Part shown: positions 5,217 through 35,669 of the stretch, in pieces
Numbering within the stretch: position 1 is the first letter of the stretch
Layout of the letters: each line of letters starts with the position of its first letter
NCBI GenBank assembly: GCA_020630215.1
Contig: JAHDBT010000014.1
Location: 1 to 35,669, forward strand
DNA length: 35,669 bases
DNA from: Bacteroidota bacterium
GTDB taxonomy: Bacteria; Bacteroidota; Bacteroidia; Chitinophagales; UBA2359
Direction of reading: 5' to 3'
Position numbers and translations under genes: made by a program
The notes under the pieces: generated by a model
What the model was told of the DNA's origin: nothing
Database searches by the model: none
Seen by the model: the letters and a program-made list of their open reading frames with translations, nothing else

Positions 5217-5308
5217 TGGCGGAGAGAGAGGGATTCGAACCCTCGGTATCCCTGTAGGAATACACACGCTTTCCAGGCGTGCACCTTCAGCCACTCGGTC
5301 ACCTCTCC
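5217..5308 (-). tRNA. tRNA-Ser (anticodon GGA)
   Basis: Read on the minus strand, the sequence starts GGAGAGG and ends TCTCTCC followed by G and an encoded CCA (5219-5217). The anticodon arm is CACGC-CTGGAAA-GCGTG, giving anticodon GGA (serine UCC/UCU). The T-arm contains GGTTCGAATCC. The long variable arm (GTGTATTCCTACAGGGATAC region) is typical of class II serine tRNAs. At 92 nt the length fits. Confidence 0.97.
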
Positions 5309-18290: not shown

Positions 18291-18803
18291 ATGCAAAGTA
18301 ATAACAATCACTTTAGCAAAATGCCCCCTCACACACGAGTATGGGTATACCAAAGCAACCGTGCTTTTAGCGAGCAAGAGGCACAACAACTACAAGCACA
18401 AATTGATGCGTTTACCCAACAATGGGCAACACACGGAAAAGAATTGGCGGCTTGTGGAGAAGTACTGTATCAGCAATTTATTGTATTGGCGGTAGATGAG
18501 CAATTGCAGGGGGCAAGCGGCTGTTCTATAGATAGCTCGGTGCATTTTATCAAGGAAATAGAACAGCAATATCAAGTCAATTTATTTGACCGTTTACTAA
18601 CCGCTTATTGGAATGCCGACCAAACACAAATTCTTACTGCCGACCGCCTCGCTTTTCAAAAGCTAGTAGCAGCAGGGCAAATTACCGAAGCAACAATTGT
18701 ATTTAATAACCTAGTACAAAACAAAAACGAGTTAAATACAAACTGGCAAATTCCAGTAAAAAACAGTTGGCATAAAAATATGATGCCTTTGGTAACAAAG
18801 TAA
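18291..18803 (+). CDS. Conserved Bacteroidota protein (often mislabelled ABC transporter ATPase)
   Basis: This 170-residue soluble protein matches a family I recognise from Flavobacteriia and Saprospiria, commonly deposited as ABC transporter ATPase. It has no Walker A motif, so that name is unsupported. The conserved parts are RVWVYQSNRAF near the start, SGCSIDSSVHFI (76-87) with a candidate functional Cys78, and the C-terminal IVFNNLVQNK and WHKN segments. A start at Met11 (MPPHTRVWVYQ) is also possible. From memory it usually follows the two Fe-S genes, as here, suggesting a shared role. It converges on the hairpin array at 18838-19260. Confidence 0.82.
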   Translation: MQSNNNHFSKMPPHTRVWVYQSNRAFSEQEAQQLQAQIDAFTQQWATHGKELAACGEVLYQQFIVLAVDEQLQGASGCSIDSSVHFIKEIEQQYQVNLFDRLLTAYWNADQTQILTADRLAFQKLVAAGQITEATIVFNNLVQNKNELNTNWQIPVKNSWHKNMMPLVTK

Positions 18804-18837: not shown

Positions 18838-18887
18838 AAAAAAAGCTCCTTTCTTCCCGAAGGAGAAAAGAGCTTTACCTTTTGTCT
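18838..18887 (-). ncRNA. Putative small RNA, array unit 4
   Basis: This is a minus-strand unit. A TTTG (18927-18924) lies 21 nt from TAATTTTTTG (18902-18893), resembling a Bacteroidota promoter. The predicted ~50-nt transcript ends in a strong stem, AAAGCTC...GAGCTTT (18876-18842), followed by a T-run at 18844-18838. The 5' part (ATAAGACAAAAGG) resembles those of the other units. The boundaries are estimates. Confidence 0.45.
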
Positions 18888-18892
18888 TATGA

Positions 18893-18927
18893 CAAAAAAT
18901 TACCTATTTACTTAAATATTCTGCAAA
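18893..18927 (-). promoter_or_regulatory. Promoter-like pair, array unit 4
   Basis: TTTG at 18927-18924, 21-nt spacer, TAATTTTTTG at 18902-18893 on the minus strand. The spacer words GCAGAATATTTAAGTA are shared with units 2 and 3. Confidence 0.45.
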
Positions 18928-18955
18928 TGTTCTTCGTGTTTTCTTCTGATTTTTA

Positions 18956-19017
18956 GAAAAGAAACTTCCACTAATTTATTGCTAATTTAGCAGAAGTTTC
19001 TAGTTCTTATTTTGCCT
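18956..19017 (-). ncRNA. Putative small RNA, array unit 3
   Basis: This is a minus-strand unit of about 62 nt. The 5' part is AGAGGCAAAATAAGAAC. The 3' part is the hairpin AGAAACTTC...GAAGTTTCT (19001-18960) followed by TTTT. The inner part of the hairpin (CTGCTAAATTAGCAATAAATTAG) is identical to unit 2. The preceding promoter-like pair is at 19055-19023. Confidence 0.5.
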
Positions 19018-19022
19018 CTTGG

Positions 19023-19055
19023 CAAAAATTACCTACTACTTAAATATTCTGCAAA
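19023..19055 (-). promoter_or_regulatory. Promoter-like pair, array unit 3
   Basis: TTTG at 19055-19052, 20-nt spacer, TAATTTTTG at 19031-19023 on the minus strand. It is close to the Bacteroidota consensus TTTG-N19/20-TAxxTTTG, with one extra base in the second box. Confidence 0.5.
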
Positions 19056-19096
19056 TATTATTTCTATTTATTCTTCGTATTTATTCCTGCATTTGT

Positions 19097-19158
19097 AAAA
19101 AGAAACTTCCACTAATTTATTGCTAATTTAGCAGAAGTTTCTAGTTCTTATTTTGCCT
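19097..19158 (-). ncRNA. Putative small RNA, array unit 2
   Basis: This is a minus-strand unit of about 62 nt, nearly identical to unit 3: 5' AGAGGCAAAATAAGAAC, then the hairpin at 19142-19101 and a T-run at 19100-19097. The promoter-like pair is at 19196-19164. The period between units 2 and 3 is 141 bp. Confidence 0.5.
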
Positions 19159-19163
19159 CTCGG

Positions 19164-19196
19164 CAAAAATTACCTACTACTTAAATATTCTGCAAA
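19164..19196 (-). promoter_or_regulatory. Promoter-like pair, array unit 2
   Basis: TTTG at 19196-19193, 20-nt spacer, TAATTTTTG at 19172-19164 on the minus strand. The spacer is identical to that of unit 3. Confidence 0.5.
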
Positions 19197-19222
19197 TATT
19201 ATTTCTATTTTTCCTGATTTTT

Positions 19223-19282
19223 AAAAAAGAAACTTCCACTAAAAATTAATAGAAGCCTCTAATCTTTTCTTATGAGAAAATT
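19223..19282 (-). ncRNA. Degenerate array unit 1
   Basis: On the minus strand CTCATAAGAAAAG is followed by AGAGGCTTC...GAAGTTTCT (19260-19228) and a six-T run (19228-19223). The stem holds only if two G-U pairs are allowed, which works on the minus-strand RNA and not on the plus strand. No TTTG box is found upstream. It may be a decayed unit or only a terminator. Confidence 0.35.
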
Positions 19283-19390
19283 TTCTTTTAACTAAATCAT
19301 TATTTTTATTTATTCTATAAAGTAAAATCAAGTTCAATTAAATTGGCTAGAAAAGCAGTACCTAATGAAATAAATCATTACGTGCTGCTA

Positions 19391-19424: not shown

Positions 19425-19605
19425 TTATTTGAATGACAATGTAAATATCGGGCAAGAAAAGAGAATAGGCAATCACAAATTTGAGCGTCTTTCAATAAAA
19501 AAGGAAGTTTTTTGAACAGGGAAATGTTGGCTTTTTAATTGTAACTGGTTGATTGTCAATGATTAAGCCTTATTAGGGGGAAGAAGGAATTGCCGCAAAA
19601 AATGA

Positions 19606-21027
19606 TTATAAACGAGCATCGATTTTTTGCATTAGCCAATTTAAATCGGCTACTTTTTTAGTGGTAAGCACTTTTTCCTTGAGTTGTTGCACTTTTTCTT
19701 TTTCAAAATCAGCAAAGCGACTTAGGCGGCGGGTAAACTCTGCTAAGTTCCTATAAATGGCTTTCATGTGTTCGGAGGCTAGGCGGTTGCGGCGTAGGTA
19801 AATTTTAAAAGCGTGGATGTGGGAATGTAATAAATCAATTTCATCTAATTCAAAATAAATTTTCATTAATAAAGTTTTAGAGTCAAAGCTATAATAAATA
19901 TCGGAAAATTCTACTTGCATTAACAATTGCATCGCTTCAGAATAATTTTTTTTATGAAAATTTAAATAAGCTAAATTATAGGCATAGGCATTTTGTCTAA
20001 AACTTTCATCAACATGTTCCTTGTAATTATCAATAAATTGTGCCGTCCAATCATAGTCGCCATTTCTTAGCGCTACGCTTACAATATTTTTATAGGTCCA
20101 AGGAGACAATAAGCCATCATCAAAAATAATTTCTTTATCCAATAGTTCTATATATAAATCGAACAAATCTTTTTGGTAATGTGTATGGCCACTATTAATT
20201 TTTCGGATGGTATAATTTACGGCATAAGTATAAATATTACGAGATTCGAAAGGCGAAAATAAATTACTGTATTGGCTTAATAAATTTTTTAGTTTTATAA
20301 AATGATTTTCCTGTTCGGTTTCTAATAGGGTTAATAAAATTTGTTGGTAAATACTTATACAAGGCACATCGTCGTGCGGGTTTTTTTCTAGGTAAGCCAA
20401 AATTTCATCTAGTAGTTTCACCTCATATTTTTCGGCTAACATTGTTTTCCTATTAATTACTTCACAACAACTTCTGAGTTTTGCAGATAGATAATAAATG
20501 TCTAAGTTATCTATTTTTTTGTGTAGACTGTCATCAAAATCGTGTTTTAATTGTTGGCTCCATAGCTGGTCATTGGCTTCTTCTAGTAAAAACTGATTGT
20601 GAAAAAAGGTAGAATCTTTATACGGAAATTTTTCTAGTAGTTGTTCATTTTCTTTAAAAGTACTGCGGTAATGTTTTTCTAATTGCCACTTACTGTATAG
20701 TTTCAGTAATTCGTTATTGTGTTTTATAGCGTCGTTCTCTACCGTATGAATCACTAAAAAACGTTCGGTTAACTTTACCAAATGACTCATGCAATAACCC
20801 AGCTTCTTAGCATCGTACTTTTCACCCTTAAAAACCTTTTTAAAAACCGTTTCTTTATTCAGCGCTTTTTCCTTACTAAAATCAGGTGCGTACTTAAAAA
20901 GGTACTTGTACAGCGTTATCAAATCCATATTTTTATTAAAATAGGGCGATGCAATAAAATCACCCAATTTTTTTAATTGTTTAGGTGATAAACAGTTCCA
21001 TACTTCCAATAGTTTACTATTCAGCAT
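19606..21027 (-). CDS. Unrecognised all-helical protein, Saprospiria-type family
   Basis: This 473-residue soluble protein has no signal peptide or catalytic motif I can name. The N-terminal block LSPKQLKKLGDFIASPYFN, followed by LYKYLFKYAPDF, is a pattern I associate with multi-copy uncharacterised proteins of Saprospiria. The rest is rich in Leu, Lys, Tyr and Phe, with helix-turn-helix periodicity like tetratricopeptide or other solenoid repeats (for example QNAYAYNLAYLNFHKKNYSEAMQLLMQ, about 340-366). A regulatory or protein-binding role is possible but unproven. It is transcribed alone on the minus strand. Confidence 0.8.
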   Translation of the reverse strand: MLNSKLLEVWNCLSPKQLKKLGDFIASPYFNKNMDLITLYKYLFKYAPDFSKEKALNKETVFKKVFKGEKYDAKKLGYCMSHLVKLTERFLVIHTVENDAIKHNNELLKLYSKWQLEKHYRSTFKENEQLLEKFPYKDSTFFHNQFLLEEANDQLWSQQLKHDFDDSLHKKIDNLDIYYLSAKLRSCCEVINRKTMLAEKYEVKLLDEILAYLEKNPHDDVPCISIYQQILLTLLETEQENHFIKLKNLLSQYSNLFSPFESRNIYTYAVNYTIRKINSGHTHYQKDLFDLYIELLDKEIIFDDGLLSPWTYKNIVSVALRNGDYDWTAQFIDNYKEHVDESFRQNAYAYNLAYLNFHKKNYSEAMQLLMQVEFSDIYYSFDSKTLLMKIYFELDEIDLLHSHIHAFKIYLRRNRLASEHMKAIYRNLAEFTRRLSRFADFEKEKVQQLKEKVLTTKKVADLNWLMQKIDARL

Positions 21028-25514: not shown

Positions 25515-26014
25515 AATCCCTAGCGTCAGTAAGAAAAAATCAAAATTCAAGAATCTAAATTTTCAATGAAAAACAGGTCGCACCTACGGCGCTTGTTGGT
25601 TTGATATTCGGGTTTCTATAAACAGGTTGTACCTACGGCACAAAAGTCAACAATCAAAAATCCTTACATCAGCATAATAAAACTCCGTGCAACTTAGTGC
25701 CAAACCTCGTGAGTCTCCGTGGGAACAATCGTCAGCAAGAAAAAATCAAAAATCAAATTTCAAGAATCAAAATTCAAAAATCCCTAGCGTCAGTAAGAAA
25801 AAATCAAGAATCTAAATTTTCAATGAAAAACAGGTCGCACCTACGGCGCTTGTTGGTTTGATATTCGGGTTTCTATAAACAGGTTGTACCTACGGCACAA
25901 AAGTCAACAATCAAAAATCCTTACATCAGCATAATAAAACTCCGTGCAACTTAGTGCCAAACCTCGTGAGTCTCCGTGGGAACAATCGTCAGCAGGAAAA
26001 AATCAAGAATCAAA
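25515..26014. repeat. Tandem duplication of a ~240-260-bp repeat-rich unit
   Basis: Unit 1 runs about 25515-25778 and unit 2 about 25779-26014, each starting AATCCCTAGCGTCAGTAAG. They are nearly identical, including GGTCGCACCTACGGCGCTTG and ACCTCGTGAGTCTCCGTGGG. They differ by a small indel near 25541-25548 and one near the junction. A third partial start (TCCCTAGCGTCAGC) is at 26017. The sequence is non-coding, with short inverted words. Confidence 0.8.
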
Positions 26015-28003: not shown

Positions 28004-31000
28004 ATGAAGCCGTTAAGATACGCTTTTTTTTGTATTTGCATTTTTCTAGCAGCCAATTTTTCCCCTATTTATGCACAATTAAACATGACCCTTACTGGCC
28101 AGTTGGCCTACAATGAGGGAATTAACGATATTTGGGGCTATACCGATCCTAGCGGAAACGAGTATGCCCTAGTTGGTACACAAACGGGCGTATCTATTGT
28201 AGATATCAGCACTACGCCTAGCACGCCTACCGAATTACACTTTATACCAGGTGTAAATAACAATTGGCGAGACCTCAAAACTTGGGGAACTCATGCTTAT
28301 GTAGTCAACGAATCTCCTAGTGGCGGCGGCTTATTAATTATTGATTTAAGTGGATTACCAGGCGCAATTACTACGTCTACCACCAACTTAGGTATTGGTT
28401 ATACCGATTCGCACAATATTTTTATTGACGAAAACGGCATTGGCTATTTATTTGGTGCTTACACAGGAACCGTAGGTAATGGAACCATTATTTGCGACAT
28501 CAATGCCAATCCTACCAATCCTACTTATTTAGGAATTTACAATACCAATTACGTTCATGACGGTTTTGTAAGAGGTGATACCATGTGGACCAGCGAAATT
28601 TATGCAGGACAATTAGGCGTAGTAGATGTAACCAACAAAGCGGCTCCCGTTTTATTAAGTTCGCAACCATCGCCAAAATCTTTTGCCCATGCTTGTTGGT
28701 TATCAGATGATGGTAATTATATCTTTTTAGTAGATGAAAAATCAGATGCATGGGTTACGGCTTACGATGTGTCTGATATTTATGATATTAAAGAATTAGA
28801 CCGATGGCAGTCCTTCCCCGGAACTAATGTAGTGCCACACAATACTTTTGTACTAGGAAACTTTGTAGTCAACTCCTACTATACCTCTGGTGTAGTAGTG
28901 CTAGATGCTACTTATCCTGATAACCTCATAGAAATTGCCAATTACGATACTTCGATTGGCTATTCTGGAAATGGTTATTTTGGCGATTGGGGGGTATATC
29001 CTTACTTTGCTACAGGTACTATTATTGCCAGCGACCGACAAGAAGGCTTACACGTATTTTCGCACACTTTTACCCAAGCCTGCTACCTAGAAGGAGTCAT
29101 TACCGACATGAATACAGGCGCAGTAATTCCAAATGCAGCAGTAGAGATTGTAGGCGTTTCTTCTTCGATAGATAATACTGATTTTTTGGGGATTTATAAA
29201 ACAGGCGCAGCTACCGTAGGCACGTATACCGTAAATGTTACCGCTACAGGATATTATCCAGGTACGGCTACCGTTATCTTATCAGCCAATGGCACCATTA
29301 CTTACTTAGATATAGAATTAACACCTATCCCTGCTTGTACTTTTGCTCCAGTAAATGTAACACATACCAATTTAACGGATGTATCGGTGCTGGTAACCTG
29401 GGATGCCGACCCCAATGCTATTGCTTATAATATTCAATACCGACCTGTTGGCAGTACTACTTGGACAAGCACTACTAGCCCACTCAACAATGTTACTTTA
29501 TCAGGATTAACCCCTGCTACCCCTTACGAAATAGAAATAGAAATTGATTGTGGAAGTGGGGTAGTAAGTCCTTTCTCTGTTACCCATAATTTTACTACTT
29601 ATGCTTCTTGCGCTGCACCAGTAATTACCTTCGGAACCATTACCGAAACAACTGCCGTTTTTAACTGGACAGCCATCAGCACCGCCAACGATTACACCAT
29701 TAGATATAGACCGCTTGGGGCATCTGCCTGGACAGGCAACAACGCTAATGCTTTAACCATTGGAGCCAATGGCTTACAAGGATGTACAGATTACGAAGTG
29801 CAAATACGAAGTAATTGCACGGGATTTTCGGGGGGCTACTCGGTAATTTATAATTTTACAACTACTGCACCTGATGCAACTTGGACAGGAGGCGCAAGCC
29901 TACTAACCTGTGACGCTGCCATCAACCTAAATTCACAAGTAACGGGTAATAGTGGTGGCACATGGACAGGTACAGGCGTAAGCACCACAGGCACATTCAA
30001 CCCTATTGGATTAACAGCAGGCACCTACCCCATTACCTACACCGTAGGCACAGGCACTTGCTTAGGCACAGATGTCCAAAACATAACCGTAAGCGCAGCC
30101 CCAGACCCGTCCTGGACACCAACAAGTTTGCAAGATTGCGATGCTAGTATTGATTTAAATACCTTAGTAGTTGGCACAAACGGAGGGTCTTGGACAGGTA
30201 CAGGCGTAAACACCACAGGCATTTTTGACCCTAGCAATTTAGCGAGTGGTATTTATCCAATAGCCTATACGGTAGGAACGGGTTCTTGCCAATTTACCAG
30301 CAATCAAAATATAACCATAACCACTGCTCCCGATGCTAGTTGGACAGGCACAAGCCTAGTGGAATGTGATGTAGCCATAGACCTAAATCCACAAGTCACA
30401 GGCACAAGCGGTGGCACCTGGACAGGCACAGGTGTAAGCACATCAGGCATGTTTAACCCTAGTGGATTAACCGCAGGCAATTATCCTATTACCTACACCG
30501 TAGGCATAGGCACTTGCCAATTTTCGACTAATCAAAATATCATTGTAACTGCCGCTCCCGACCCAAGTTGGACGGGTGTAAGCCTAGCGGAATGTGATGC
30601 AGCCATAGACCTAAATCCACAAGTAACAGGTACAAGCGGAGGCTCTTGGACAGGCACAGGCGTAAGCACATCTGGTATGTTCGATCCTAGCGGATTAACA
30701 GCAGGTACCTATCCAATAACTTACACGGTAGGTACTGGTTCTTGCCAATTTACCAACAATCAAAATATAACTGTAACCGCAGCCCCCGATGCGAGTTGGA
30801 CAGGCACAAGCATTGTGGAATGTGATGCGGCAATAGACTTAAACTTACAAGTAACAGGCAATAGCGGCGGTACTTGGTCAGGCACAGGTGTAAACACATC
30901 TGGCATGTTTAACCTTAGTGGATTAACAGCAGGCACTTACCCAATTACCTACACGGTAGGCACTGGCACTTGCCAGTTTTCTACCAACGAAAATATAACC

Positions 31001-33964
31001 GTAACCACAGCTCCTGATGCGAGTTGGACAGGCACAAGTTTAGCAGCATGTGATGCAGCAATAGATTTAAACCCACAAGTAAGTGGCACAAGTGGTGGCG
31101 CATGGACAGGCACAGGCGTAAGCGCATCTGGCATGTTTGACCCTAGCGGATTAACAGCAGGCACTTATCCCATTACTTACACTGTAGGCACCGGCACTTG
31201 CCAATTTTCTACCAACGAAAATATAACCATAACCGCAGCTCCTGATGCAAGCTGGACAGGTATAAGTCTAGCGGAATGCGATGCCATAATAGATTTAAAC
31301 CCACAAGTAAATGGCACAAGTGGCGGTGCATGGATAGGCACAGGCGTAAGCGCATCTGGCATGTTTGACCCTAGCGGATTAGCGGCAGGCACTTATCCAA
31401 TTACTTACACCGTAGGTACAGGCACTTGTCAATTTTCTACTAATGAAAATATAATTGTTACTGCCTCTCCCGATGCTACTTGGACAGGCACAAGCCTAGT
31501 GGAATGTGATGCAGCAATAGACTTAAATTTGCAAGTAACAGGCAATAGTGGTGGTGCTTGGACAGGCACAGGTGTAAGTGCAGCTGGCATGTTTGACCCT
31601 AGCGGATTAGCGGCAGGTACTTACCCAATTACCTACACAGTAGGCACAGGCACCTGCCAATTTTCTACTAATGAAAATATAACCGTAACCGCCGCCCCTG
31701 ATGCGAGTTGGACAGGCACAAGTTTAGCAACATGTGATGCCGTCTTAGACTTAAACCCACAAGTAACTGGCACAATTGGCGGTACATGGACAGGCACAGG
31801 CGTAAGCGCATCTGGTATGTTCGACCCTAGTGGACTAACCGCAGGCACTTACCCAATTACCTACACGGTAGGAACAAGCACCTGCCAATTTTCTACCAAT
31901 GAAAATATAACCATAACCGCCGCCCCTGATGCGAGTTGGACAGGCACAAGTTTAGCAACATGTGATGCCACCTTAGACCTAAATTTACAAGTAAGCGGCA
32001 CAAGTGGTGGCGCATGGACAGGCACAGGCGTAAGCGCATCTGGCATGTTTGACCCTAGCGGATTAACAGCAGGCACATATCCAATTACTTACACAGTAGG
32101 TACAGGCACTTGTCAATTTTCGGCTAATCAAAATATAACCATAACCACTGCTCCTAATGCTAGTTGGACAAGCACCAGCGTAGCCGAATGTGCACCTTCG
32201 ATAGATTTAAATGCTTTGGTAAATGGTACAAGCGGTGGTACTTGGAGTGGTACAGGCGTAAATTCTTCCGACATGTTTAATCCTAGTGGATTAGCTCCTG
32301 GCACTTATCCCGTTACCTATACGGTAGGCACAGGCACCTGTGAGTTTACTAGTACCGAAAACATAATGGTAATCGCTGCCCCCAATGCCGCTTGGACACC
32401 CCTCGTTCTAGCAACTTGCGATAGCACGGTAGATTTAAATACTTGGGTAACAGGCACAAATGGTGGTACTTGGACAGGCAGCACCCTTATAGGCAGCAGC
32501 TCGTTTGACCCACGCACCTTAGCCGTAGGAAACTACACCCTTACCTATACCGTAGGCACAGGCACTTGCCAAAATGCCGTTAGTCAAACCATTACTGTAG
32601 TAGCTGGTCCAGATCCTACTTGGAGTGGCGGTTTCGACATTGCTGTTTGTGATGCTTCGATAGATTTAAATACTATGGTAACAGGCACAAGCGGCGGTAC
32701 GTGGTCAGGAGGCAGCGTTGGAACGAATGGTATCTTCGACCCTTCTATTTATCCGTTTGGGGCATACTCCATTACCTATAGCGTAGGTACGGGCAGTTGT
32801 TCTACAAGCACCAGCCAAACCATTACTGTAATTGCTTCGCCAAGTGCTGCTTGGAACAACACCATTAACATTGCCGAATGCGACAATCCGATAGATTTAA
32901 ATGCTTTGGTAACAGGTACTAGTGGAGGCACTTGGTCTGGTTCAGGAGTCAATGCCGCAGGTATTTTTGATCCTAGCGGAATGAGTGTTGGTGCTTACAG
33001 CATTACTTATAGCGTAGGTGGAGGTTTGTGCCAAGATGTAGTAGGCGGCATCATAACCGTAGCTAGTGGACCCGATGCTAGTTGGACCCTACAAAACCTA
33101 GAAACTTGCGACACTGCCATTGATTTAAATACATTGGTAACAGGTACAAGCGGCGGTTCGTGGTCGGGAACAGGCGTAACAAATGCGGGCGTTTTTAATC
33201 CTGCTATTCTTGCCCCTGGCAATTACAGTATTACCTACACAACAGGCAGCAGCCCTTGTCAGGATATATTGAACCAAACCATTGTGCTAGAAGATTGTTC
33301 GGGTTTATTACAAGTAAAAGTATTTTTGGAAGGTCCGTATGATGCTACTAGTGGTATGATGGTGAATGGCATAAATGTAAACGGCTTACTACCTTTATCA
33401 CAACCCTACAACACCGCCCCGTGGGATTACGCTGGCACCGAAACCCTAAGCAGCATTTCTACCGATATGATAGATTGGGTATTGGTAGAAGTGAGAAACG
33501 GGGTAGATAACAACATCGTAGAATTTCAGTCTGCCGCCATTTTACTAGCCGACGGTTCGATAGTAGATGTACAAGGCAATGCAGGCATTAAGTTAAACAA
33601 CCTCCCTATCACCGACGATTACTACATCGTTGTACGACATAGAAACCACTTAGATGTACTCAGTAATACAAGCATCACCTTTGCCCCAACTACCTCCTAC
33701 GATTTTACCACCAACATCACCCAAGCTTATGGACCGAGCCAGTTAAAAGAAATGAGCGACGGCGTATCCGTACTACACACAGGCGATATAAATGGCGATG
33801 GCGTAATTACCGTCAACGATTTTAACAACTATGTAATAGAAGTCTCTGGCCTCAACCAATACCTCAACAGCGACCTCAACTTAGACCGTGCCGTTACCGT
33901 TTTCGATTTTAATTATTATCGCTTTAATGCTAGTAAAATTGGGGTGCAGCAGATACGGTATTAG
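28004..33964 (+). CDS. Giant secreted repeat protein, choice-of-anchor-B type
   Basis: This exported protein has 1986 residues. The signal peptide ends IYA|Q25. Residues ~26-355 are a beta-propeller-like choice-of-anchor-B domain (IWGYTDPSGNEYALVGTQTG; SHNIFIDENGIGYLFG). A carboxypeptidase-regulatory-like domain follows (~358-445, YLEGVITDMNTGAVIPNA), then two fibronectin type III modules (~450-535, ~540-621). Residues 622-1764 are fifteen ~76-residue repeats (consensus WTGTGV-S-GMFDPSGLTAGTYPITYTVG). The tail has a module (LEGPYD...QPYNTAPWDYAGTE...VRHRNHLDV) and a dockerin-like end (GDINGDGVITVNDFNNY; DLNLDRAVTVFDFNYY). No canonical T9SS domain is seen, so the tail may be the sorting or anchoring signal. 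An adhesin or surface-layer role is likely but inferred. Confidence 0.9.
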   Translation: MKPLRYAFFCICIFLAANFSPIYAQLNMTLTGQLAYNEGINDIWGYTDPSGNEYALVGTQTGVSIVDISTTPSTPTELHFIPGVNNNWRDLKTWGTHAYVVNESPSGGGLLIIDLSGLPGAITTSTTNLGIGYTDSHNIFIDENGIGYLFGAYTGTVGNGTIICDINANPTNPTYLGIYNTNYVHDGFVRGDTMWTSEIYAGQLGVVDVTNKAAPVLLSSQPSPKSFAHACWLSDDGNYIFLVDEKSDAWVTAYDVSDIYDIKELDRWQSFPGTNVVPHNTFVLGNFVVNSYYTSGVVVLDATYPDNLIEIANYDTSIGYSGNGYFGDWGVYPYFATGTIIASDRQEGLHVFSHTFTQACYLEGVITDMNTGAVIPNAAVEIVGVSSSIDNTDFLGIYKTGAATVGTYTVNVTATGYYPGTATVILSANGTITYLDIELTPIPACTFAPVNVTHTNLTDVSVLVTWDADPNAIAYNIQYRPVGSTTWTSTTSPLNNVTLSGLTPATPYEIEIEIDCGSGVVSPFSVTHNFTTYASCAAPVITFGTITETTAVFNWTAISTANDYTIRYRPLGASAWTGNNANALTIGANGLQGCTDYEVQIRSNCTGFSGGYSVIYNFTTTAPDATWTGGASLLTCDAAINLNSQVTGNSGGTWTGTGVSTTGTFNPIGLTAGTYPITYTVGTGTCLGTDVQNITVSAAPDPSWTPTSLQDCDASIDLNTLVVGTNGGSWTGTGVNTTGIFDPSNLASGIYPIAYTVGTGSCQFTSNQNITITTAPDASWTGTSLVECDVAIDLNPQVTGTSGGTWTGTGVSTSGMFNPSGLTAGNYPITYTVGIGTCQFSTNQNIIVTAAPDPSWTGVSLAECDAAIDLNPQVTGTSGGSWTGTGVSTSGMFDPSGLTAGTYPITYTVGTGSCQFTNNQNITVTAAPDASWTGTSIVECDAAIDLNLQVTGNSGGTWSGTGVNTSGMFNLSGLTAGTYPITYTVGTGTCQFSTNENITVTTAPDASWTGTSLAACDAAIDLNPQVSGTSGGAWTGTGVSASGMFDPSGLTAGTYPITYTVGTGTCQFSTNENITITAAPDASWTGISLAECDAIIDLNPQVNGTSGGAWIGTGVSASGMFDPSGLAAGTYPITYTVGTGTCQFSTNENIIVTASPDATWTGTSLVECDAAIDLNLQVTGNSGGAWTGTGVSAAGMFDPSGLAAGTYPITYTVGTGTCQFSTNENITVTAAPDASWTGTSLATCDAVLDLNPQVTGTIGGTWTGTGVSASGMFDPSGLTAGTYPITYTVGTSTCQFSTNENITITAAPDASWTGTSLATCDATLDLNLQVSGTSGGAWTGTGVSASGMFDPSGLTAGTYPITYTVGTGTCQFSANQNITITTAPNASWTSTSVAECAPSIDLNALVNGTSGGTWSGTGVNSSDMFNPSGLAPGTYPVTYTVGTGTCEFTSTENIMVIAAPNAAWTPLVLATCDSTVDLNTWVTGTNGGTWTGSTLIGSSSFDPRTLAVGNYTLTYTVGTGTCQNAVSQTITVVAGPDPTWSGGFDIAVCDASIDLNTMVTGTSGGTWSGGSVGTNGIFDPSIYPFGAYSITYSVGTGSCSTSTSQTITVIASPSAAWNNTINIAECDNPIDLNALVTGTSGGTWSGSGVNAAGIFDPSGMSVGAYSITYSVGGGLCQDVVGGIITVASGPDASWTLQNLETCDTAIDLNTLVTGTSGGSWSGTGVTNAGVFNPAILAPGNYSITYTTGSSPCQDILNQTIVLEDCSGLLQVKVFLEGPYDATSGMMVNGINVNGLLPLSQPYNTAPWDYAGTETLSSISTDMIDWVLVEVRNGVDNNIVEFQSAAILLADGSIVDVQGNAGIKLNNLPITDDYYIVVRHRNHLDVLSNTSITFAPTTSYDFTTNITQAYGPSQLKEMSDGVSVLHTGDINGDGVITVNDFNNYVIEVSGLNQYLNSDLNLDRAVTVFDFNYYRFNASKIGVQQIRY
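29867..33295 (+). repeat. Fifteen in-frame ~228-bp repeats
   Basis: Repeats begin at 29867 (77 residues), 30098 and 30326, then every 228 bp to at least 32150, and end near 33295. Repeats 3-10 (30326-32149) are almost identical at the DNA and protein level. Repeats 1-2 and 11-15 are divergent. Each carries two cysteines about 50 residues apart, which may form a disulfide. This pattern suggests recent expansion or homogenisation of the central block. Confidence 0.9.
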
Positions 33965-34479: not shown

Positions 34480-34666
34480 CATTTTAAGGTAAATAAAATT
34501 AGCCATCCCGTTTAAAACAATGCCACCATTATTCGCTAAACAAAGCAAATTCCCTTTCCTTTGGTGGCGAGGCATTTTAAGGTAAATAAAATTAGCCATC
34601 CTGTTTAAAACAATACCACCATTATTCGCTAGACAAAGCAAATTCCCCTCCTTTGGAGGGGCGAGG
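34480..34666. repeat. Tandem 93-bp duplication
   Basis: Copy 1 (34480-34572) and copy 2 (34573-34666) both run from CATTTTAAGGTAAATAAAAT to the GGCGAGG words. They share AAAACAAT(G/A)CCACCATTATT and ACAAAGCAAATTCCC, with a few substitutions. Copy 2 ends in CCCCTCCTTTGGAGGGG, a small stem. A diverged inverted copy of the CTAGACAAAGCAAA-TTC end lies at about 35466-35512. Confidence 0.75.
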
Positions 34667-34782: not shown

Positions 34783-35254
34783 CTATTCCCCTCTTAAATC
34801 ATTAACAACATCCCTAATACTCCTCCCTATTTCTGCTAAAACCTCATCCTGTAATTGGTATTGACTAATGGGTTGGCCTTTTTCTGGTAAAGGATTAAAT
34901 TTAGCAAGGTCGGTATCCTCCCACAAACAATCACTCAAAATAATAGGAATAACTTTGGTCTGCCCAGTTTGTTCTCTTTCTAAAGCTAAGTGTACTTCTT
35001 CCTCCATAATTATAATCAGTGGCTAAAAAGTTGGCACTAATTAGGAAGAGCACCACATCTGCGCTGTGTAGTTCTGCTAGGATTTTTTCGTTCCATTTTT
35101 CGCCAGGGGCAATTTGGTTGTCGTGCCAGGTGTTGGCTTTTTTGATGGGGCGTAGGTATTTGTCTATTTCATCTCTTAGGGCTTTGTCTTTTTGGGCGTA
35201 GGAGAAGAAGATTTTTAAAGGGGCTGGAACAGGTACAAGCTGTTTATAGCATTT
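34783..35254 (-). pseudogene. TIR-domain protein, frameshifted and 5'-truncated
   Basis: Two adjacent minus-strand frames make one TIR domain. The upstream frame (35254 to about 35012) reads ...PAPLKIFFSYAQKDKALRDE...WHDNQIAPGEKWNEKI...SADVVLFLISANFLATDY. The lower frame (35007 to 34783) continues EEEVHLALEREQTGQTKVIP...LSDCLWEDTDLAKF...DEVLAEIGRSIRDVVNDL. The join needs removal of one base near 35008-35016, where an extra A is likely. The upstream frame is closed by TAA at 35257-35255 with no ATG after it, and the preceding KQLVPVPAPL looks like a linker. An N-terminal domain has therefore probably been lost. TIR domains act as NAD-cleaving or signalling modules in bacteria. This copy is likely inactive, unless the shift is a sequencing error. 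Confidence 0.75.
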
Positions 35255-35669
35255 TTAATGCAAAAAATTACAAACGCCGTAGGTGTGGTCTGTTTGATAT
35301 AGGTGGGGGATAGAACAAGTGAGGCGGGGTAATTAGGGCATCAATAGTTTAATAGGTCGCACCTACGGCGCTAGGTTTTATATTGCGTGTTTTTCTATAA
35401 AGAGGTTGCTCCTATGGAGCATGGTGTATTTTTTAGTATTTGGGTTTATTTATGTTTGGGGTTTTTACCCTCCTCTTAATCTCCTCCCAGGAGGAGAATT
35501 TTGCTTTGTCTAGGGAATAAAGGTAGCTATGATTTAGCAGCTTTTGTAGAACGGGTTTCAACCCGTTTTTTACAGTATCAGGACTTGATGCACCGTTGAC
35601 GGTTTCAACCCGTTTGTTACAGTTGTAAGCCCCATCATCCAACAAAAAGAGTCCTACAACAAACTACTT
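35255..35669. repeat. Dispersed repeats at the right edge
   Basis: No gene is supported. AGGTCGCACCTACGGCGCTAG (35349-35369) and CTATAAAGAGGTTGCTCCTA are diverged copies of the words at 25575-25640. A hairpin CTCCTCC-CA-GGAGGAG lies near 35480-35496. ACGGGTT-TC-AACCCGT with a T-run (35551-35570) looks like a terminator, and its core recurs at 35599-35623. Confidence 0.6.

Follow-up and report, generated by a model that had tools for sequence, protein, structure and literature searches.

The copies of LhrC1-5 in Listeria lie partly in tandem. Each copy of these multicopy small RNAs (sRNAs) has its own promoter, as tested by lacZ fusions (PMC5880928). In Neisseria, the tandem sibling sRNAs NmsRA and NmsRB are two copies with 70% identity; they are expressed, conservation extends across isolates, and their targets are known (PMC5362039). 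The FopS sRNAs of Bacteroides are paralogues of ~65-70 nt with a conserved 5′ seed to which a small RRM protein binds; they derive from 14 separate loci with canonical sigma promoters and are widespread in Bacteroidaceae (PMC11697453).

The locus considered here, positions 18838-19282 of a 35.7-kb contig (the window, that is, the whole stretch of DNA analysed), is like NmsRA/NmsRB in having similar structured units in tandem within one intergenic region, but it has four units, is predicted from sequence and is one for which no homologue was found. Where general layout is compared, it shares with FopS its multicopy nature, its phylum and a genome that also encodes small RRM proteins; unlike FopS it is one tandem locus and has no convincing promoter. 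The likeness to LhrC1-5, from another phylum, is that of multiple copies.

The source assembly is 7.4 Mb in 767 contigs and ~90% complete. Both the T9SS sorting domains that it encodes and the TAnnTTTGC boxes 5′ of its tRNA genes are marks of Bacteroidota. An earlier note on this DNA had described four related tandem hairpin units in the convergent gap between a 170-aa gene and a 473-aa gene. The four-unit array exists as a feature, with every sequence element then named present where it was placed:

18291-18803, plus strand: 170-aa flanking gene, with no confident Pfam match
18838-18931, minus strand: unit 4, with AACATTTGCA box (18931-18922), leader and small hairpin (18897-18880) with a compensatory change
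18876-18842, minus strand: 3′ part of unit 4, a UUCG-loop terminator-like stem plus U-run, unrelated to that of unit 2
18954-19059, minus strand: unit 3, a near-identical tandem copy of unit 2, with small hairpin (19027-19010) and terminator-like stem (19001-18960)
19095-19200, minus strand: unit 2, with AATATTTGCA box (19200-19191), unpaired leader and small hairpin (19168-19151)
19142-19101, minus strand: 3′ part of unit 2, a terminator-like stem with a U5 run
19222-19281, minus strand: unit 1, with small hairpin (19280-19265, TTTTCT/AGAAAA) and terminator-like stem (19260-19228) plus U-run
19354-19389, minus strand: a separate hairpin with TTTTCT directly 3′ of it, lying between array and 473-aa gene and unrelated to the units (fold z −4.6)
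19606-21027, minus strand: 473-aa flanking gene, of a large unnamed paralogous family

Each of the four minus-strand units consists of a small hairpin with a 4-nt loop and, 3′ of it, a terminator-like stem with a U-run. The stable stem followed directly by a U-run that defines intrinsic (Rho-independent) terminators is present in all four, as had been claimed, and the fold energies of the units are −14.9 to −18.4 kcal/mol. In structure the array resembles a sibling sRNA family, as similar folded units, each with a terminator, are repeated on one strand. Units 2 and 3 form a 141-nt tandem duplication with 92% identity, and from their sequences look like a recent birth by duplication beside older, diverged units 1 and 4. 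In unit 1 both hairpins are kept, and the leader of units 2-4 is missing or decayed.

Compared with dinucleotide shuffles (100 for the whole array and 200 for single units), the array folds with a z-score of −8.0 and none of the 100 shuffles is as good. For units 2, 3 and 4 the scores are −4.5, −4.4 and −4.9 (0/200 shuffles as good in each case). Unit 1 is weaker, at −2.05 on the minus strand and −0.44 on the plus strand. The preference for the minus strand is nevertheless clearest there, bearing out what had been proposed: its fold energy is −17.9 kcal/mol on the minus strand versus −6.7 on the plus strand. Where its 5′ arm differs from that of unit 2, pairing is retained as G-U on the minus strand alone, which is why its plus strand folds no better than shuffles.

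What is kept between units differs from one part to another. The unpaired leader of ~30 nt is identical at 28 of 30 positions between units 2 and 4. The small hairpin is identical at 14 of 20, with all seven pairs kept and a C-G to U-A change confirming the compensatory change that had been noticed in unit 4; the stem variants are GCC/GGC in units 2-3, GUC/GAC in unit 4 and CU/AG in unit 1. In the terminator stem, units 2 and 4 have unrelated sequences, yet unit 4 still forms a stem with a U-run. Because the leader is kept, the small stem compensates and the terminator stem is replaced, a duplicated small-RNA gene fits better than plain repeats; the pattern points to an RNA whose leader would count by sequence and whose stems would count by shape. 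It does not amount to independent covariation, since the four units are paralogues from a single locus and two are nearly identical; with no homologue found, all covariation rests on these.

The reading that we prefer, with a probability of about 0.5, is that the array encodes sibling sRNAs in tandem, a lineage-specific family in which each member has its own terminator and the leader serves as seed, transcription being inferred. Units 2-4 would be three sibling sRNAs and unit 1 a fourth, decayed or leaderless, all from the minus strand. Each predicted RNA, ~65-95 nt long, would begin with an unpaired 5′ leader (AUAUUUAAGUA..UAGGUAAU); the small hairpin would come next and, after a short linker, the stem and U-run of an intrinsic terminator. 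As the leader is kept while the stems change, it would be the likely segment for base-pairing with target mRNAs. In 679 sampled translation start regions, leader complementarity showed no excess over shuffles, and so gave no target signal.

The question of promoters is less simple. The earlier note had read the layout of units 2-4 as a promoter plus terminator repeated three times. The strings TTTG-20/21-TAATTTTT(T)G are indeed present on the minus strand, as are the terminators, but the boxes do not stand out as promoters. A profile was derived from 15 tRNA promoters in the same genome (−7 TAnnTTTGC, −33 TTG, spacer 18-21); it only modestly separates regions upstream of protein genes from controls in that genome. 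The tRNA promoters themselves score 13.6-25.4. The TTTG...TAATTTTTG boxes as originally placed reach 9.1, 7.2 and 3.7, the first of these ranking 62nd in the window; ~15%, 30% and 65% of the 108-nt control intervals do as well, so that the values are within background. With that placement the arrangement of a Bacteroidota sigma-A promoter (TTTG at −33, a spacer of ~18-21, TAnnTTTG at −7) is absent; TAATTTTTG has one base too many for it, and two in unit 4.

The boxes first taken as −33, AATATTTGCA or AACATTTGCA, score 8.8, 8.8 and 8.1 when rescored as −7 boxes, compared with 8.2 for the tRNA-Ser of the window, and chance alone gives ~0.4-0.6 boxes with such scores per kb and strand. [This tRNA-Ser(GGA), at 5217-5308 on the minus strand, has an atypical −7 box, AACATTTGC, plus a good −33 TTTG.] The −7-like TTTGCA box is at the same position in units 2-4, and a TAnnTTTG box has been reported at −12 to −5 in Flavobacterium psychrophilum (PMC9723704). 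No −33 TTG partner is found 5′ of AATATTTGCA or AACATTTGCA taken as the −7 box. By its sequence, the AATATTTGCA box fits a −7 role better than a −33 role, though partnerless. On the shifted reading, with the box at that distance, the putative RNAs would start near 19188, 19047 and 18919 and be ~82-93 nt long. These starts are ~29 nt earlier than those predicted with the original boxes (19159, 19018 and 18888), and the small hairpin would be inside the RNA, which does away with the puzzle raised in the earlier note, that hairpin and promoter box overlap. Neither reading yields a strong or proven promoter.

The searches for relatives turned up no array but this one. Its own genome has no second copy, either by DNA search or with a covariance model, for which the next match has E = 2.96. 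The covariance search that had been suggested for related genomes found no relative among 398 genomes of the order, with 12 candidates per genome scored and sensitivity limited accordingly; distant relatives may therefore have been missed. DNA search of 60 relatives gave nothing beyond weak matches of ~20-40 nt. In GTDB contigs and viral contigs there was no match to an exact pattern of 23 bases that allowed a gap of variable length, and the array had none in plasmids and phages. The idea that a known motif such as Flavo-1 might be involved did not hold: no Rfam family scored above its gathering score, and riboswitches and PyrR sites were below threshold as well. An interspersed or REP-like repeat is rejected given the single copy in the genome, and mobile, phage or plasmid origin given the absence of matches in viral contigs, plasmids and phages. 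Eight of the short DNA matches in the genome and its relatives were examined, and all eight lack the structure.

The family comparison set was 19 other genomes, none of the same genus. The array is absent downstream of orthologues of the 170-aa gene in 17 family genomes, and a contig scan of genomes with the 473-aa protein gave no close relative. This protein has no confident match in Pfam or NCBIfam, but its own genome contains 32 matches to it and each of the 19 others 2-41; weak PDB/Pfam matches to viral hemagglutinin are below the Pfam cut-off and look like chance helical matches. The hairpin at 19389-19354 is a possible terminator of the 473-aa gene, in which case the array would be cut off from that gene. 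With this hairpin in between and no conservation of the gene neighbourhood, the idea that the array belongs to the 3′ UTR of that gene was rejected. [Elsewhere in the window, 28004-33964 on the plus strand is a 1986-aa open frame with ~10.5 tandem repeats of 228 nt, the product of which is probably a large repetitive surface protein.]

Tandem repetition between genes occurs elsewhere in this genome. Within the window there are intergenic tandem duplications at 25542-26014 (257 nt × 1.8, with AGGTCGCACCTACGGCGC-type stretches that recur in 35000-35669) and at 34480-34656 (93 nt × 1.9). Another intergenic tandem array, on contig C673 (L108 16014-16321), has at least 4.4 copies of 70-nt units, each with a CTTTCCAGT/ACTGGAAAG hairpin, and ends in an assembly gap. 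A 1.1-Mb sample of the genome (~15%) showed no second cluster in which four terminator-like hairpins repeat on the same strand.

The rival that survives best, though we consider it somewhat unlikely, is that the array is a duplicated terminator region which at most stops read-through from the 473-aa gene into its neighbour. The position in a convergent gap, the terminator-like nature of all four stems (the last among the best), the existence of other intergenic tandem duplications in the genome and the weak promoter evidence all speak for it. It leaves unexplained, however, why between units 2 and 4 a 30-nt leader and a compensating small hairpin should be kept and the terminator stem itself replaced, and the 473-aa gene already has its own 3′ hairpin. 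It is improbable that the array gives a single long structured RNA, with eight hairpins, that reads through the U-runs and whose repeated leader acts, for instance, as a sponge that takes up an RNA-binding protein. The fold of the whole array would suit such an RNA, every unpaired leader would offer a binding site, and three RRM proteins are encoded in the genome; but the stem and U-run that close each unit should terminate transcription, and in the gap upstream of the array the strongest minus-strand promoter candidate, at 19449, has a score of 10.3, which does not rise above background. A DNA-level element, operator-like palindromes or other protein-binding repeats with no RNA product, would account for the perfect interrupted palindrome that the small hairpin forms in DNA and for a leader conserved as sequence, but is very improbable given that strand asymmetry and the G-U-tolerant changes of unit 1 are RNA features and that the array occurs once, in a convergent gap, next to no gene start.

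Besides the folding and the differences between units, points in favour of tandem sibling sRNAs, the preferred reading, are the hairpin that sets the array apart from the 473-aa gene, the TTTGCA box shared by units 2-4, the sibling and multicopy sRNAs of Neisseria and Bacteroides, and the RNA-binding proteins of the genome. Against it stand the weak promoters on either reading, the searches that found no homologue and the negative result for leader complementarity. The genome encodes three small RRM proteins of ~120 aa, of the RbpB class, and a search of it for Hfq gave no match, which agrees with RNA binding of the RbpB type, as known from Bacteroides (PMC11697453). The further idea that the leader is the conserved active part, with stems and terminators evolving freely around it, and that the leaders possibly form a joint protein sponge for a small RRM protein, is speculative and rather improbable. 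As with other sibling sRNA families, copy number would be expected to raise dosage. We know of no characterised sRNAs in this Bacteroidota lineage. If expressed, the array would be a tandem sibling-sRNA locus in it.
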